Under the pieces are notes generated by a model. The model was not told where the DNA came from, searched no databases, and saw only the letters and a program-made list of their open reading frames with translations. Positions 44,424-53,300 of a stretch of DNA of 64,000 nt are shown piece after piece (within the stretch, counting starts at the first letter, position 1; every line of letters starts with the position of its first letter). A program made the position numbers and the translations under genes. Location of the stretch: positions 124,001-188,000 of the forward strand of contig CATKHK010000080.1 in assembly GCA_949751835.1 (NCBI GenBank), read 5' to 3'. Source of the stretch: Blepharisma japonicum (taxonomy: Eukaryota; Ciliophora; Heterotrichea; Heterotrichida; Blepharismidae).

Positions 44424-45887
44424 ATGGGAAACTGCAGCAACAGCGCAAAACCTGATATTCCTCAATCAGAAATTTCATACTCAGAAATAGCAATGCTAAA
44501 AATCAAAGAGCGTGACTATTCAGGACAAGTCATCAACCACGACAAAATAAAATTCAAATTGACATCTCCATGTCTCAACCAAACTGCCAAGTTCTTGCAC
44601 ATGCCTTATGCCTTCGACATCACAGGAACAGTTCTCCCTGGGCTAGACCCTAGAGAACTTGTCGATAAGGAATGCCAAGACAATCTCTTCTTTGTGGAGA
44701 AAGAAAATACCCTCTTCGCTGCACTTTTTGACGGGCATGGCCAAGATGGGTTTAAAGTCACTGAATATTGCAAGAGGTTCATGAATCGACAATTTAAAGA
44801 AAAATTCGAAGATTTTAAAGTAAAGCCTAAAGATGCAATCAGAAAAATAATTGAGGAATGCGATGCGTCACTCAAAGCAAATGCTGGGGACATAAATTAT
44901 TTAATATCAGGGACCACTGCTGTAGTCCTGTTTATAGATGGAAATAGCATGTATGTAGGTAGTGTGGGCGACTCTAGAGCTATTTTGGGGACTATTCCAA
45001 AGTCTGATGATGAAGTGTCAAAAATTATAAGAAGCAATAAACCGGTTCCTTATAAAACAAATATCGAGCCTAGAAGGTTACTGAAATCTATAGCACTCAC
45101 TGTAGATCAAAAGCCAAACCATCAAGAAGAACTTGAAAGGATTCAAAAATCAGGCGGAAAAGTCCAACAATTGACAGATGACAGAGGAAATAAAATAGGC
45201 CCATTTAGAGTGTGAAAAGGGAACGGAAACATCCCAGGCTTAGCAATGTCGAGATCAATAGGTGACGGAATTGCAAAAGACTGTGGAGTTATTTCTACAC
45301 CCATAGTCCATGATTTTCAGCTATTTCCTGATAGAGACCAATTCATAGTTTTAGGCTCAGATGGGGTATGAGATGTTTTTGACAACCAAGAAGCTGTGAA
45401 TTTTGTAGAGAAATACCGCTCAGAGTGTGTGAAAGCACCTGTCAGAGACAATGCCTATCCTATTAAAGTAACATATATTTAGCCTGATAACTCAACTATA
45501 TCTCAATTGTTAGGTGAAGAGGCAAGATATAGATGGTTTGGAGTCTGCGAAGACGAAGATGTGATGATTGATGATATATCTGTAATTGTCATTGAAATAA
45601 GCTCTTTAGTCCCTATGTCGGTTATTGATACGAGTGAAACTGAGGATAGGAGAACTGTGAGGCTTAATAGTTTGGGAGATATTCAAGACTCGAAGCCCAT
45701 GGTCTCAAATATGCTGAGAGGAGATGCTGTAAGAGGAAGCTTTATACCTGCAAAGGACCCTAATGCAAAACGAATAAGAATTGACCCGAAAAGAGGATCA
45801 CATGCTGTTGTAGGGGGAGAAGATGCGGAGGAAACTGAAGCTGTCATCGATGTGCCATTTGTCGATGAAGAGCATAAACTTGATTAG
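44424..45887 (+). CDS. PP2C-type Ser/Thr phosphatase, N-myristoylation site (one intron)
   Basis: join(44424..45467,45483..45887), 482 residues. It has TGA-coded Trp in FRVW and in the family-invariant SDGVW (45367-45369). MGNCSNS at the N-terminus is a strong myristoylation signal, with Cys4 for palmitoylation. PP2C metal and catalytic motifs are present: ALFDGHGQDG, SGTTAVVLFIDG, YVGSVGDSRAIL, GLAMSRSIGDG, LGSDGVWDVF and DDISVIVIEI. Membrane-tethered metal-dependent phosphatase. An acidic and basic low-complexity tail (about 75 residues) follows the domain. It starts 32 bp after the allantoinase-like gene. Confidence 0.93.
45468..45482 (+). other. 15-nt spliceosomal intron
   Basis: GTAACATATATTTAG. 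Removal joins PIK to PDNST in the PP2C gene and restores the final metal-binding DD motif. Retention gives an in-frame TAG. Confidence 0.87.
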
Positions 45888-46120
45888 TTTATTAAGTTCA
45901 AAAAATTAGTATGCTAAAACATTATGCATTATTACGAATTTTAATTTGGAAAATTTTAGAACAGAAGCTGAGAGAGTTTGTAAATAATAAAATTATATTT
46001 TAGGTAAAGATATCATAAAGTCAATGATTTTGAATTATACTTACACTCATTTGGCTTAATAGAAATATTTGTTAAAAAAAGCTATTGCGTTAGGAGTTAG
46101 GTTTCTTTATAGAAAAGAGA
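45888..46120. other. Start of a 4.5-kb gene-free region
   Basis: AT-rich. Near 46082-46100 there is a short half-copy of the repeat core (GCGTTAGGAGTTAG) just ahead of the first full copy. No gene between 45888 and 50397. Confidence 0.6.
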
Positions 46121-46311
46121 CCACTGCGCCAGGAGTAGTCTAGAGCAGGATAGAACTTGCGCCCTAACCTTCAGTAAACGATCAATTCAAAGTTTTGGAA
46201 GTAACTCCTTAGCATTGAGTCATCTTTATAATCCCTTTTGATTTAAATATCTAAGATGGAACGATAATTTCTTTTATGGGTCAAGGCTCGAATATTCATA
46301 AATATATTTCT
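46121..46311 (+). repeat. Interspersed ~190-bp repeat, copy a
   Basis: Best-preserved member of a local family. Order: CCACTGCGCCAGGAGT, GAGCAGGATAGAACTTGCGC, a variable stretch, GTAACTCCTTAGCATTGAG, then TTGATTTAAATATCTAAGA-like sequence (one change here), then TTTTATGGGTCAA. AGGAGT (46131-46136) is perfectly complementary to ACTCCT (46204-46209). Strand shown is only the reading direction used here. Confidence 0.8.
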
Positions 46312-46683
46312 TAAAGAAAACTTAATTTAATTTGTTATAAATTAAGCTTCATTCAAGATAAAATTCTTTTTTGTCATTTCTTTCTTGCTATAGAATCCAT
46401 AGTTAAATTTTTATATGTAAGATTGGAGTGCAACTTGATCCAAAAAAGTTATGGAAGCTTATAAGATGCTAGTGAATAACTATTAATTCGCATTTCATTT
46501 TTTATAGATTCTAAAATATTAAATGAATCATGCTTTAATTAGATTTTCGTGATAATAATTTAACTCTAAATTTTGTTGTCAGGAAAAAGCTATTGCACCA
46601 GGAGTGATCTAAATGCAGACTCACACCTACCTTGATAGAAAAGAATTTAAAATATTTGAAGTAAGAGATTTTATAAAAAAAGA

Positions 46684-46870
46684 CTACTGCGCTAGGAGAA
46701 ATCTAGAGCAGGATAGAACTTGCGCACAATCCTACAGTAGAGTTAATAATCAAACGATATGAAGTAACTCCTTAGCATTGAGCCATCTTTATAATTCCTC
46801 TTGATTTAAATATCCAAGAGAAATTTATAATTTCTTTTTATGGGTCAAGACTTGAAAATTCATGAATATA
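46684..46870 (+). repeat. Interspersed ~190-bp repeat, copy b
   Basis: Same module order as copy a, including GAGCAGGATAGAACTTGCGC and TTAGCATTGAGCC. AGGAG (46694-46698) pairs with CTCCT (46768-46772). A separate half-copy of the 5' core (GCACCAGGAGTGATC) lies at about 46595-46609. Confidence 0.8.
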
Positions 46871-47040
46871 TGGTCAAGTAAAAATTGAGAGTTATCCCTC
46901 AACTTCACTTTCTATATCAAAAGTATTTTATATAGAACAATGCATAATTTTTAATCTCTACGAGAGAGCAAGCAAAAGATTTTTGTTCACTCTTAAAGGG
47001 TTTAGAGTTTACTTTAACAGCGCAGCTTGCCGAATGGTTT

Positions 47041-47248
47041 TACCACTATCTTTTCTCCTCCTTTGCTTTCATTCTTAATTCTTTTTTATCGTCTCTTCTT
47101 CTTCTTCCTCTTCTTCTCTCGATTTCCATACCCAATTTTACTCCTCTCATATCCTTCTTAATCTTTGTGTCTCATTTTCCATTTTTCATTTCGTCCTTAA
47201 TTAATCTTATCCACCCATATCTGCTTCTTTATATTATCTTCTCTCTTT
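47041..47248. repeat. Pyrimidine-rich tract
   Basis: The plus strand is dominated by C and T, with runs of TCT/CTT/TTC around 47095-47125. It is unlike flanking AT-rich DNA, which has balanced purines. Small frames through it lack family features. It could have formed by slippage. Confidence 0.65.
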
Positions 47249-47440
47249 TTATGCCATTTTGTGCTATGTTGAGTGCTAAACTGTGTGCTATTTCGTGTGC
47301 TGCATTGTGTACTATATCGTGCGCTATGCCTGTTCTATTTCGAATGCTATGTCGTACACTATATCAGTTGTAATAAGTGCACTATGCCGTGTGATATTCC
47401 ATATGCTCTGTCATGCGTCATGCTTTACTGTTCTACGCTG
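47249..47440 (+). repeat. Degenerate 12-bp tandem repeat
   Basis: About a dozen diverged units near GTGCTATNTCGT, for example GTGCTATGTTGA, GTGCTAAACTGT, GTGCTATTTCGT, GTGCTGCATTGT, GTACTATATCGT, ATGCTATGTCGT. Because 12 is a multiple of three, all frames stay open for some distance, which explains several short frames here; I do not call them genes. Confidence 0.75.
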
Positions 47441-47982
47441 TCATTTTTCTCACCACCATCTTTTTCTCACTAATTCTTCCTGCCTTTTCGATTTTATATC
47501 CAGTCATTCCTAGAAATTTTGCTAAACTATTTCACAAACTAAAAAATACCCAAATTTTCTTTCTTTCTCCGAGAGCAAATTTCTGGTTTCCCCAATGTTT
47601 TTCTCGTGTGGGCCTTCTTCTTCTTCTTCACCTTCCTTAGTTCCCAAGAGCACCAAACTTATTCTCCAGTGCAATTTTCTAACCCAGGCTAATCTTATGT
47701 GATATAATTATTTTTAACTAGATTGACTTGATTCATGTTTAAAACGAGACAATCAAAATATTAATTTAACTACTTACCAAAATGCTTTAATCATATATAG
47801 TTATATTCTTATGAGAGATAAGAATTAGGGTATTAATATTTTATTAAATATATTTAAAGTCTTATTAGATTAGAATAAGAGCTAATATATTACAACATCT
47901 CTAATATTTCTTTATCAACATAGGTAGTTATTTTTAAAGATAAGAATCTATGGGTATCATTTATGCTTGAATAAATACATAG
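47441..47982. other. Gene-free spacer
   Basis: Initially pyrimidine-rich (to about 47640), then plain AT-rich. No feature recognised. Confidence 0.5.
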
Positions 47983-48852
47983 AAACTAAAAATTAAATAA
48001 TTCAAATAAAAATAATTTGTTCATAGAAACAGTTCTCTTACTTTTTGCTGTCTAAATAATACTGATTATTTAATTTCTAAATCTTCAAGATTCGGATTCT
48101 TGGAAGAAGAGAAATCCATTATTTAATACATTCATTCAATTATTAAAGCTTCAAAACAATCTCTATTAAATTAGAAAGGAACCATAAAAAGTAATAAAAC
48201 AGCTTAAATTTTTATTTATGTTTAGATTATTTTAATCTTCCCTCTTTATTTTTTGAAGATCCTACAATATTGTTTAGAGTTGCATAAAATTTGCTAAGAT
48301 CGAAAGCTTACGATAAGAAAAAAGCCACAGCGCTAGGAGTATTCTAAGTCATCAGCAAGGTTTGCGCACCCACCTCGATAGAATATTTCGTTTTTATATG
48401 AAGTATCTCCTTAGCATAGAGCTATCTTTATTGTTTCTATTTATTTAAATAGCACTCAAATAATGCCTATGTTTATTATGGGTCAAGGAAGATAAGAAAA
48501 TAAAGAATAAAATAAAAATTTATCTATGATTAATATTTTAACATATAGAATTATAACAGTGAAAGCGTGTCTATAGAAAAATATAAATTATCAGCTTGTT
48601 TAGTAATCTAGCTACTAGCTTTTAGTAATTTTTAATGCTTATTTGTATGCTTCTGGTATATTACTGTGCTCACATATATATATTAATTCTTTTTAATCTT
48701 CAGTTAAACACTGCAATGAAGCTAAACTTTTCTTATCATTTATTTGTTTTTATAAAATATAAGAATAAATATCAAAATTCCCCTACATCTTAAAAATTTA
48801 TAACGATTGACACATCATATTTTCTTATAAATTAAAGATTATTGAACTTCTA
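47983..48852 (+). repeat. Direct duplication, unit 1 (contains repeat copy c)
   Basis: About 0.87 kb that recurs at 49366-50205 with substitutions and small indels. Shared landmarks: AAACTAAAAATTAAATAATTC at the left edge (47983 and 49367), TGGAAGAAGAGAAATCCATT, GCCACAGCGCTAGGAGTATT, ATGCTTATTTG, and ATTGACACATCATATTTTC near the right edge. It contains member c of the ~190-bp family at about 48324-48488 (AGGAG 48335-48339 pairs with CTCCT 48407-48411). Confidence 0.85.
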
Positions 48853-48997
48853 TTACTTATATCTCTTAACCAATAAAATATTAAATGAGTTGTGTTTTAA
48901 TCAGCAGCTTGTGAAAATAAGTTCAGCTTTAAATTTTGCTAATAACCTAAAATTGTTCAAAGAGTAATCTAAGTACTAAGAAATTTTATAAAAATAG
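48853..48997. other. Gene-free spacer
   Basis: Short AT-rich segment between duplication unit 1 and repeat copy d. Its AATGAGTTGTGTTTTAATCAG resembles the segment ahead of copy b (about 46520-46545), so copies b and d may share left flanks. Confidence 0.45.
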
Positions 48998-49190
48998 GCC
49001 ACTGCGCCAAGAGTGTCTAAGAGGATAGAACTCACGCCCAACCCGTCTGTAGATTCATAAAACAATGAATGAAGTAACTCTTTAGCATTGAGCCATTTTT
49101 TATAGTTTCTCTTGATTTAAATATCTAAGAGAAATTGATAAATTCTTTTTATGGGTCAAAACTTAAAAATTCATGAATATATGGTCAAAT
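48998..49190 (+). repeat. Interspersed ~190-bp repeat, copy d
   Basis: Same module order as copies a and b. The 5' core reads CCAAGAGT and the 3' core reads ACTCTT, so the stem is kept by a paired change: AAGAGT (49009-49014) is perfectly complementary to ACTCTT (49077-49082), in place of AGGAGT/ACTCCT. Confidence 0.8.
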
Positions 49191-49260
49191 AAAAATGGGA
49201 TCCAGTCATCCCCAATATCACTTTCGTATATCAAAAGTATATTATATAGAATAGTATATA

Positions 49261-49366
49261 AATCTTTAGCATTGAGCCATTTTTATAGTTTCTCTTGATT
49301 TAAATATCTAAGAGAAATTGATAAATTCTTTTATGGGTCAAAACTTAAAAATTCATGAATATATAA
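49261..49366 (+). repeat. Interspersed repeat, 3' half only (copy e)
   Basis: Repeats TTTAGCATTGAGCC through ATGGGTCAAAACTTAAAAATTCATGAATATA of copy d almost exactly, without the 5' half. It directly abuts duplication unit 2, so it probably marks an unequal-exchange junction. Confidence 0.75.
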
Positions 49367-50205
49367 AAACTAAAAATTAAATAATTCAAATAAAAGTAAT
49401 TTGTTCACTCTTATTTTTTGCTGTCTAAATAATACTGATTATTTAGTTTCTAAATCTTCAAGGTTCTATTCTTGGAAGAAGAGAAATCCATTATTTAATA
49501 CATTCATCCAATTATTAAAGCTTCAAAACAATCTCTATTAAATTAGAAAGGAACCATAAAGCAGCTTAAATTTTTTTAATTACCTTTGGATTATTTTAAT
49601 TTTCCCTCTTTATTTTTTGAAGATCCTATAATATTGTTTAGAGTTGCATAAAATTAGCTAAGATCGAACGTTTACAATAAGAAAACAGCCACAGCGCTAG
49701 GAGTATTCTAAGTCATCAGCAAGGCTTGTGAATTTACCTCAATAGAATATTTCGTTTTAATATGAAGTATCTTTTTTTGCATAGAACTATCGCTATTGTT
49801 TCTTTTATTTAGATAACACTAAAATAATGCCTATTTTATTATGGGTAAGATAAGAAAAGGAATAAAATAAAAGTTTATCTATGATTAATATTTTAACATT
49901 TTAGAATTATAACAGTAAAAACGTATCTCTCGAAAAATATAAATTATCAGCTTGTTTAGTAATCTAGCTACTAGCTTTTAGTAACTTTTAATGCTTATTT
50001 GCATACTTCTGCTATATCACTGTGCTCATATATATATTAATTCCATTTTGAATCTTCAGTTAAACACTGCAATGAAGTTAAACCTTTCTAATCATTTATT
50101 GTTCTTATTATATTTCTTTAAGGTTTAGGGAATTTTGATTTTTTATTTTTATATTTTGCGATTGACACATCATATTTTCTTATAAATTAAAGATTATTAA
50201 ATTCT
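49366..50205 (+). repeat. Direct duplication, unit 2 (contains repeat copy f)
   Basis: Second copy of 47983-48852, start-to-start distance about 1.38 kb. Includes copy f of the small family (49687-49850), whose 3' stem strand is damaged (CTTTTTTTGCATAG in place of CTCCTTAGCATAG), so this copy is probably decayed. Confidence 0.85.
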
Positions 50206-50397
50206 ATCATCACCCTCTTAAATAATAAAATTTTTAAAAAATGCTGTTTTCTTATCTGTATTGCAATCAGTACTGACTTTGAATTTTTGCAAATAAGCCA
50301 GTTTTTATATATAAGAAGTTATATTTTTGACATATAAAAATGCAACCTTAAAGGATCCTTTTCATTTTTAAAGTAAATTGGAAAACGTATATTGGAA

Positions 50398-53300
50398 ATG
50401 TCTTTGTATCACTTTAAAGCACTAGTATACAAAAATTGGATACTTTGATATCGAAGACCACTAGGATCATTCTGTGAGCTTTTTTTCCCTATACTTGTAT
50501 TTATCGTTTTATATTGGGTAAGAACACAAGTGACTTCTGATGAATACGAAGCAGAAAGCTATCTTAACAACGCAACTTATGTATCCCCAACTCAAACCAC
50601 ATCAGTTTCCTTTGAATTCGAATCTTCTATACCATTTTTGCAATGCTTAGGATATGTAGCACAAGGAGAGGAGTGGATTGTCGGACTTGCACCGCAAAAT
50701 GAAATAACAGAATACATTGAAGATCAGCTTGGAGACTATTTAAGAAGAGTTGAGGTCAGGTATTTTGAAGATGACGATGCAATAGAAGATTATGTTAAAG
50801 ACAGCGACTATGAAGACGGACCAAAGCTTTGTTTTGCTGTCGTTTTTACAGAGTGAAGTGACAACTATGTTGAATATAAAATCAGATTCAACCAGACTGA
50901 CTCAATACCTGATGATGGCTTTGCAATAGGTGACTACGTAGATATTTTTAATTTCAATGACAATGAAGCTACTAATGAAAGACAAAGAGAGCCAAAATCT
51001 GAATTCCAAGCACAATTTTTTTCGACAGGGTTTATACAAATACAAAATTGGGTTGATAATTATTTATTGCAAAAATATACAGGAAGCACAAATTCATATA
51101 TTGCAGCAGGATTTGTGCCAATGTATTTTGATGAATGAATTGATGATGACTTTTTAGAGTATTTGGCGAATTTTTTGGCGTTTTTTATTATTCTTAGCTT
51201 TGGAATTCCTGTTTGTAGGATGGTAACACAAATAGTTGAAGAAAAGGAAACGAAAATTAAAGAAATGATGGTTATCATGGGGTTATCTGGAACTTCCTAT
51301 TGGGCTGCATGAATTTTATACTACTTTTTCATATATTTAGCAATAGCAATCGGAGCAGCTTATATCCTAAGTCGAAATTTTTACGAATACAGCGACGTTT
51401 CTATCATTTTCATCACTTATTTTTTACTTGGACTCTCCTGTATTTCATTTAGTTTACTTTTGAGTGTTTTTTTCTCAAGTGTAAAAACAGCTCTAATTTT
51501 CAGCATCATGATCTTTTTCGCCACATTTTTCGCATATTTTGCAGTAGACGACCCTCTTATATCGACTTCTACAAAGTATTGAATTTCAATTATACCTTCT
51601 GTTGCTTTTTCATTAGGGACACAAATCATGGTTGAGCAAGAAAGAGGGTATATTGGTGTAACATATGATAATATCACTGAAGAGTTATTCAATTATAAAT
51701 ACTCAGCTAGTCTCATTTTTATGGCTATTGACACAGTTGTCATATTTTTGCTGTTTTTATATCTTGAACAAGTGTGGCCATCTGAGTTTGGGGTAAAAAG
51801 ACCATGAAATTTTTTATTTAAAAAAGAGTTTTGGGTTGAAACTCCTGTTGAAAGTAAAGAATTTGATGATAGTATTGAGAAAAACGAAAATACAGAAGAA
51901 GTTGATGCAATTCTTGAAGAGCAAAAAAGCAAAGGAAAAGCTATGATGATCAGAAACCTAACAAAGAGCTATGATGGGGCACTTGCTGTTGACAATTTGA
52001 ATCTTGATATATATGAAGGGCAAATTTTTGCATTGTTAGGGCATAATGGTGCTGGAAAAACAACAACGATTTCAATGCTGACAGGAATGATAACTGTTAC
52101 TAGTGGAGATATGATGGTCAGAAATCTATTACTCTCTAAAGACCTTAAAAAAATTCGAAAGCTTCTGGGTGTCTGCCCACAGCAAAATATTCATTATCCA
52201 GAGCTAACCCCTTCTGAGCATTTATACTTATTTTCTGTTTTTAAAGGAAAAACAAATAGTGACGAAATTAGCAAAGAAATAAACGAAAAACTAGAAGAAA
52301 TTATGCTGCTACCTCAAAAAAACGTCCAGGTGAAAACTTTATCAGGTGGCCAAAAACGAAAACTATCGCTTGCCATCGCTCTAATAGGAGGATCTCCAAT
52401 TATTTTGCTAGATGAGCCTACATCAGGTATGGACCTCAATGCTAGAAGACATATGTGGGAAATGCTTAAAAACAACAAACAAGAAAGAATAATTATTTTG
52501 ACAACTCACTATATGCAAGAAGCTGACACTCTTGCAGACAGAATTGCAATACTTTCTCATGGAAAGCTCAGATGCTGTGGAAGCTCATTATTTTTGAAAA
52601 ATAAATTTGGAGTAGGATACTACTTGGTTCTTGTCAAGCAGTCTAATGTATACAGTCCTCAACATTCTAAATTAATTATTGATTTTGTGGAAAAATATGT
52701 TTCAAACTCAAGATTAGTAAGTGATGTACAAGCAGAAATTTCATTCCAGCTACCTTTGTCAAGCTCAGAACAGTTTAATGATTTTTTCCAAGCTCTGGAT
52801 GAGAAAAAGATGGAATTAGAAATTAGGTCTTACTCTGTATCTGTGACGACACTAGAAGAAGTCTTTATAAATGTTACTGAAAAAACTCAAGAAATTAAGG
52901 AAAATGAAGAAAATCTTGATGAGACAAGATTCCAGGAAGGCGAAAATGAACTTTTGGTTGAGAAGCCAAAAGAAAGTAAGGCGCTTTTTATCAGGCATTT
53001 CAAAGCTTTGCTGAAAAAGAGAATACTATGGAGCATGAGAGACTTCAAAACTTTTACATTTGAAATTTTGATTCCAATGTCTTTAATCACGATTGGAATT
53101 ATATTTCTCTTGATTGCTGACAGATATATTGATCAAGACCCTTGGGATTTAGTAATAGACCAATATGATACCCCTCAGAATATCTTATACCCAGACAATG
53201 TAAATGACTATACCTCTCAGCTGATGTCATCTTTAGACTCTATGGAAGATATTGATACTTCAGGAATCACAGCTGAAGATATTGAAGAATTCGATCTGCT

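Follow-up and report, generated by a model that had tools for sequence, protein, structure and literature searches.

A probable vault RNA gene family in the ciliate Blepharisma japonicum and its U6-type external promoter

Vault RNAs (vtRNAs) are known from deuterostomes and trypanosomatids (PMC7058938; PMC10491885; PMC9326685). Trypanosoma brucei possesses a vault RNA together with three vault proteins and TEP1, and the function of the vault particle is still called elusive (PMC12547018). The available part of PMC13100048 treats the vaults of Dictyostelium and no ciliate, and that of PMC6315972 mentions vault RNA once, in general terms. Here we describe a repeat family in a 64,000-nucleotide (nt) stretch of DNA from the ciliate Blepharisma japonicum (assembly GCA_949751835.1, contig CATKHK010000080.1, positions 124,001 to 188,000; in the following, the window). 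Judged from sequence comparisons, its copies probably constitute the vault RNA gene family of a ciliate, equipped with a U6-type external promoter and lacking a B box at the usual place. An earlier note on these letters had regarded the repeats as a candidate for something undescribed. This view has to be narrowed, since they resemble the known vault RNA family, but it stands in so far as a literature search found no report of a ciliate vault RNA, judged by title and abstract opening among the matches listed and with most subscription papers outside its coverage.

The copies and their promoter elements lie between positions 46,074 and 49,846 of the window, copies a to f where the earlier note had placed them. 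It had read them on the plus strand, which turned out to be wrong: the minus strand is indicated by terminator, promoter and Rfam matches alike. In the following list, bit scores refer to R1, a covariance model built from the eight-row alignment A3 (one C62 copy left out); C-numbers denote contigs of the assembly, the window lying on C80.

46074..46110, minus strand: copy h, a fragment with the RNA 3' end and T-run, recognized by eye and without R1 match at E <= 10
46113..46221, minus strand: copy a, putative vault-like RNA gene, from the predicted 5' end to the end of the T-run (T4); R1 105.4 bits, a row of the model
46274..46281, minus strand: promoter element ACCCATAA of copy a, 60 nt upstream of the first outer-stem base; TATTTAA at 46243-46249
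46583..46668, minus strand: copy g, a fragment with the RNA 3' part and T-run, its 5' end lost, recognized by eye and without R1 match at E <= 10
46675..46784, minus strand: copy b, putative vault-like RNA gene, T7 end; R1 107 bits, a row of the model
46838..46845, minus strand: promoter element ACCCATAA of copy b, distance 61 nt; TATTTAA at 46806-46812
48318..48423, minus strand: copy c, putative vault-like RNA gene, T6 end; R1 94.6 bits, a row of the model
48476..48483, minus strand: promoter element ACCCATAA of copy c, distance 60 nt; TATTTAA at 48445-48451
48990..49094, minus strand: copy d, putative vault-like RNA gene carrying the compensatory change in its helix (AAGAG/CTCTT), T5 end; R1 92.7 bits, a row of the model
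49149..49156, minus strand: promoter element ACCCATAA of copy d, distance 62 nt; TATTTAA at 49117-49123
49263..49337, minus strand: copy e, truncated to the promoter (49300-49337) and the first RNA nucleotides (to about 49263), without R1 match at E <= 10
49682..49788, minus strand: copy f, decayed, the 5' strand of its helix now an A-run; promoter element kept at 49839-49846; R1 56.6 bits, outside the model

All 26 copies collected from the genome (see below) end in a T-run of at least four, and in 24 of them the element (T/A)CCCATAA stands 57-62 nt upstream of the initial base of the outer stem (21 exact, three with one mismatch). This base is likely the start of the RNA, and behind the element an A/T-rich, TATA-like stretch is visible by eye. 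The single U6 match in the genome (92.8 bits) has TCCCATAA and TATTTAA upstream, spaced by 24 nt, the corresponding spacing in copies a to e being 24-25 nt, and its promoter element stands 61 nt upstream of the point where the U6 model begins. The copies thus share with the sole U6 found a fixed-distance element of the kind that defines type 3 promoters. Internal A and B boxes as in animal vtRNA genes have no full counterpart: the A box is imperfect by eye, and the B-box pattern GWTCRANNC occurs in three of the 26 copies only, each time as GTTCAATGC at the 5' end. Because of the element at the U6 distance, the T-runs and the confinement of the B-box pattern to these three 5' ends, we regard the gene type as U6-like, and RNA polymerase III probably transcribes these genes through an external promoter of the U6 type (type 3). 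A type 3 polymerase III promoter is also ascribed to the telomerase RNAs of ciliates (PMC9841428). Two further matched blocks to which the earlier note had drawn attention find different places on this map, as TTAGCATTGAGCC belongs to the RNA, being its 5' end read backwards, whereas TTTTATGGGTCAA lies outside it and represents the upstream promoter element TTGACCCATAAAA.

The proposal of a structured RNA with a long-range stem between AGGAGT and ACTCCT was borne out. On the plus strand, the stem letters are AGGAGT..ACTCCT in copy a, AGGAGA..ACTCCT in copy b, AGGAGT..TCTCCT in copy c and AAGAGT..ACTCTT in copy d. From alignment A5, made by MAFFT without structural information from 21 of the 26 copies (copy f, the long C72 copy, two weak C37 copies and the weak C62 copy were omitted), RNAalifold unaided recovered the same helix, in which the 5' and 3' ends join in the bulged terminal helix expected of a vault RNA: an outer stem of 4 base pairs (bp), an internal loop, 5 bp, a bulged A and again 5 bp. 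Pairing is found in 96.6% of its 294 cells, compared with 40.1-59.5% when the 3' side is slid by 1-3 columns. Both sides have changed in five of the 14 pairs, and 22 cells carry changes on both sides (shuffle mean 8.3, with none of 500 shuffles as high). The compensatory G-to-A/C-to-T change seen in copy d is genuine. In the wider family, the pair concerned is G-C in 14 of the 21 copies, A-U in the other seven and never broken. In alignment A3, all 96 cells pair and five of 12 pairs show a change on both sides; when all 27 R1 matches, including one later dropped, are aligned to the model, 95.3% of the cells pair. Some of the eight copies folded singly lack the helix in this register in their minimum-energy fold. 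By eye, a hairpin of the type AAUGCC-UUCG-GGC recurs inside the RNA in many copies from outside the window. The suspected decay of copy f was confirmed: its plus strand reads AGGAGT with the broken partner ATCTTTTTTTG. Direct repeats at a spacing of about 1.36-1.38 kb, 91-99% alike (window 47971-50201), identify it as a duplicate of copy c and its surroundings.

The genome-wide collection and covariance modelling that had been suggested as a check were performed on the assembly of 45.19 Mb in 224 contigs and yielded at least 26 copies, helix pairing as well as covariation being seen over the 21 of them in A5. R1 gave 27 matches at E <= 0.01 in the fetched loci, of which 26 were kept; the excluded one (L076:1936-2040, 22.7 bits) has neither promoter nor T-run. 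These copies are distributed over ten contigs, with five on C80 (in the window), nine on C37, three on C2, two each on C30 and C62 and one each on C46, C72, C144, C186 and C213, and 23 of them, including the eight rows of the model itself, score above 50 bits. The RNA is mostly 85-135 nt long, and identity between copies averages 80% in the core and 52% in the loop region. The C144 and C186 copies, which are 98.9% identical, may be alleles or the result of duplication. On C72 (L071:1365-1527), the RNA reaches about 160 nt through an enlarged loop, and a promoterless fragment resembling it lies on C118 (L110:50-145). On C62 (L032, about 1057-1482 and downstream), two copies are adjacent, with another fragment that has a T-run (CTCTCTTGACTCAATAGCC) lying between them; the weaker copy has lost 2 nt in GGCGC. 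Weak R1 matches of 12-19 bits (L006, L027:2104, L047, L055, L066, L110 and window 53037) were left uncounted.

The family is invisible to DNA similarity alone, because a search with copy b matched C80 only (a, b, d, e) and one with the whole stretch returned, apart from itself, a single 143-nt match on C13 that is unrelated. The broad promoter pattern CCCATAA-N22-27-TATTTAA is unspecific by itself, since it has 25 sites in the genome against 22 in a reversed control. Of these 25 sites, one belongs to U6 and five to copies in the window; at a further five, distributed over C2, C30, C37 (one each) and C62 (two), the pattern leads into the same RNA at the right distance, which leaves fourteen others. 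A 5' core pattern has 38 sites against 27 in the control. A longer core pattern shows no excess over its control with two mismatches allowed (110 against 123), but all of its 16 exact sites and six of eight one-mismatch sites are copies. Two one-mismatch sites were rejected as copies, namely a promoterless fragment on C118 (18.8 bits) and C30:216631, which has no R1 match. The 3' motif has 40 sites against five in the reversed control, 16 of them known copies; among the other 24 sites, 20 were fetched and contain no copy (best R1 score 10.7 bits), and many of these look like coding sequence by eye. Since the exact core sites are copies without exception and no copy was met at the 20 sites that have only the 3' motif, the number of copies built on this core may not be far above 26, which is formally a lower bound.

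The search of Rfam, likewise proposed in the earlier note, covered 4227 families and named Vault RNA (RF00006) as the best for the two copies scanned alone, with every copy scoring below the gathering score of 34 bits. The C37 copy at 147 kb, scanned alone, has Vault as its best family with 28.0 bits and E 9.9e-5 (next best 0.57), and so has the C37 copy at 124.7 kb, the only other one scanned alone, with 17.4 bits and E 0.11 (next 4.1). In a lax scan of window positions 46000-50000, Vault appears on the minus strand at copies c (26.9 bits, E 0.0073), b (26.5 bits, E 0.0095) and a (21.4 bits, E 0.28), copies d and f having no Rfam match at E <= 5. Altogether, seven of the 25 copies scanned (all except the C144 copy) match Vault, namely a, b, c, two on C37, one on C62 and the one on C46, and each match spans the full model, positions 1-99, on the promoter strand. 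The alignments agree in the outer stem, in a helix of 4 bp, a bulged A and 4 bp, in the following UAC and in the GCGC side with its loop. If the whole-genome search is extrapolated by halving E for every additional bit, a score of 28.0 bits would correspond to an E of about 0.008 genome-wide. U6, Y RNA and other Rfam families were rejected as the identity of the copies, being absent or weaker than Vault: lax scans of the copies (E limits 3 to 10) gave no Y RNA match, and U6 overlaps copy c only, weakly (15.5 bits, E 2.6, cut-off 44).

The TROVE domain is common to TEP1, a vault protein, and Ro60, the partner of Y RNA. In the genome of B. japonicum, we found three genes for major vault proteins, with vault repeats and shoulder domain, and three TROVE-domain proteins of about 600 amino acids on C54, C52 and C7. 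Scans of their TROVE frames gave no NACHT or WD40 match. A search of solved structures pairs the C54 protein with other TROVE proteins at E 5.1e-10 and with Ro60 at 0.24 only, and for the C52 protein no Ro60 appears at E <= 1. The TROVE genes on C54 (L085) and C7 (L086) are each followed on the same strand by a similar protein frame, which we take to encode a C2/copine-like protein, and thus form a duplicated gene pair. TEP1 was originally found through its likeness to p80 of Tetrahymena (PMC7916137).

These observations suggest a model in which the copies are minus-strand genes whose product is a small non-coding RNA, probably synthesized by RNA polymerase III under a type 3 external promoter. 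The two ends of this RNA pair, and the resulting helix, with its internal loop and single bulged A, follows the layout of vault RNAs. By analogy with animals and trypanosomes, the bulged end helix may bind a TROVE protein, and the resulting RNA-protein complex may sit in vault shells formed by the three major vault proteins.

Several results weigh against this assignment and have to be set beside the evidence above. At the gathering score, the Rfam scan of the window yielded a single match, a transfer RNA; no copy reaches the Vault cut-off, the best remaining at 28.0 bits, and 18 of the 25 copies scanned show no Vault match. A whole-genome Vault search, in which 49 of 2815 candidates were scored, returned copy a only, at E 0.75, and Vault matches at E <= 10 arose in seven of 14 prokaryote controls, none above the cut-off. 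The GWTCRANNC scan found no B box at the usual place in the 26 copies. Folded one by one, eight copies have unremarkable energies (z between +0.12 and -1.99), and two of the five measures of covariation do not stand out from the shuffles (120 of 500 for pairs with double change, 155 of 500 for further pair types). Among the proteins, two of the three TROVE proteins show a Ro60-type vWA at 27.1 and 28.3 bits, straddling the cut-off of 27.7, and a search for TEP1_N gave no match, its control being equally silent. Because 28.0 bits fall short of 34, the whole-genome search found copy a only and half of the controls were matched, we call the copies vault-like and probably vault RNA, and not a proven member of the family.

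Y RNA is a small polymerase III RNA with paired ends and a TROVE protein partner. The empty TEP1_N search and the near-cut-off vWA matches leave room for a similar pairing here, in which a ciliate-specific polymerase III RNA would bind a Ro- or p80-like TROVE protein and act like Y RNA in RNA quality control, its likeness to vault RNA reflecting a shared TROVE-binding end helix and not a place in vaults. The compact TROVE proteins, whose TROVE frames lack NACHT and WD40, would suit such a role, and a Y-RNA-like function has been suggested for the vault RNA of trypanosomatids (PMC9326685). We nevertheless consider this explanation unlikely, given that lax Rfam scans bring up Vault and not Y RNA, that the structure matches of the C54 and C52 proteins to Ro60 are weak or missing and that the genome encodes three vault proteins. 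Quite unlikely, too, is a new polymerase III RNA family unrelated to vault RNA, with a likeness due to chance or to convergence on A-box-like letters. The sub-threshold scores, the genome-wide E of copy a and the weak matches in prokaryote controls are what this explanation would predict, but it must account for the simultaneous agreement of both ends in letters and structure, including the bulged A and the GCGC-side loop, and for the extrapolated genome-wide value of the best copy. Finally, the earlier note had thought of an element like a short interspersed nuclear element (SINE), a retroposon, and small size, multiple copies, a T-run terminator and the presence of decayed and truncated copies fit that description. 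Copying through a transcript would, however, leave an external promoter behind, while here the promoter outside the RNA accompanies 24 of 26 copies at a near-constant distance; in addition, the copies form local clusters and occur in a duplicated block of DNA, and a B box is missing from the usual place. For the co-copied promoter above all, we rejected a SINE or other mobile repeat, which we judge highly improbable. A vault RNA gene family with a U6-type promoter is thus the reading that we prefer.

Beside the repeats, a PP2C gene (Pfam; window 44424-45887) reads UGA as tryptophan at two places, one of them in GSDGVWDV, and its sole stop before the end falls inside a 15-nt GT..AG stretch, an intron. 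Both are features of heterotrich ciliates. The genome of Blepharisma stoltei has 41 Mb and 66% AT, with UGA read as tryptophan, CCCTAACA telomeres and introns of 15 and 16 bp (PMC9942806). Here, about ten CCCTAACA units stand at the start of C80 and about one and a half at the start of C4, and none were found at the end of C80, the start of C13 or the end of C83. Telomere, genetic code and intron together mark a Blepharisma-like ciliate. The stretch 45887-50530 of the window is gene-poor, because the list of open reading frames of at least 100 amino acids (standard-code list, table 11) is empty there. A degenerate 12/24-nt tandem repeat (GTGTGCTATTTC) lies inside a T/C-rich stretch at window 47260-47355, and window 47536-47678 matches contig C13 (243761-243888) at 72%, for which we offer no explanation.

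If confirmed, the assignment would give a ciliate an RNA that has until now been described mainly in animals and trypanosomes, and vault RNA, like its protein shell, would be placed in a further deep branch of eukaryotes. The chances seem evenly balanced that vault RNA is an ancient eukaryotic RNA which forms a large family with U6-type promoters in ciliates and whose carriers there are the p80-like TROVE proteins of the first telomerase purifications. The covariance model could then serve to search other protists, and the ciliate TROVE proteins would have a proposed RNA partner.

Among the known systems, Y RNA resembles the copies as a small RNA with paired ends, predicted here to be made by polymerase III, in a host with TROVE genes, and differs in that the copies lack an Rfam Y RNA match at lax thresholds. 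With U6-type (type 3) genes they share the upstream element of this genome's own U6, at near-equal distance and spacing, whereas their transcript is no small nuclear RNA by Rfam. The vault RNA of T. brucei (TBsRNA-10), compared by its description, is likewise that of a protist and was recognized by short stretches of similarity at its 5' and 3' ends, which fold into a bulged terminal helix (PMC9326685), in a host that also has three vault proteins (PMC12547018); a single vtRNA there contrasts with at least 26 copies in the ciliate. The animal Vault RNA (RF00006) agrees in length, in the end helix with internal loop and bulged A, in the UAC after the helix, the GCGC on the 3' strand, the T-run end and the major vault proteins of the host. 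The ciliate copies differ from it by scores below the gathering score, an outer stem two pairs shorter (4 against 6 bp), their number of at least 26 and, compared with animal vtRNA genes and their internal A/B boxes and upstream elements (PMC7058938), by a promoter that is apparently external only.

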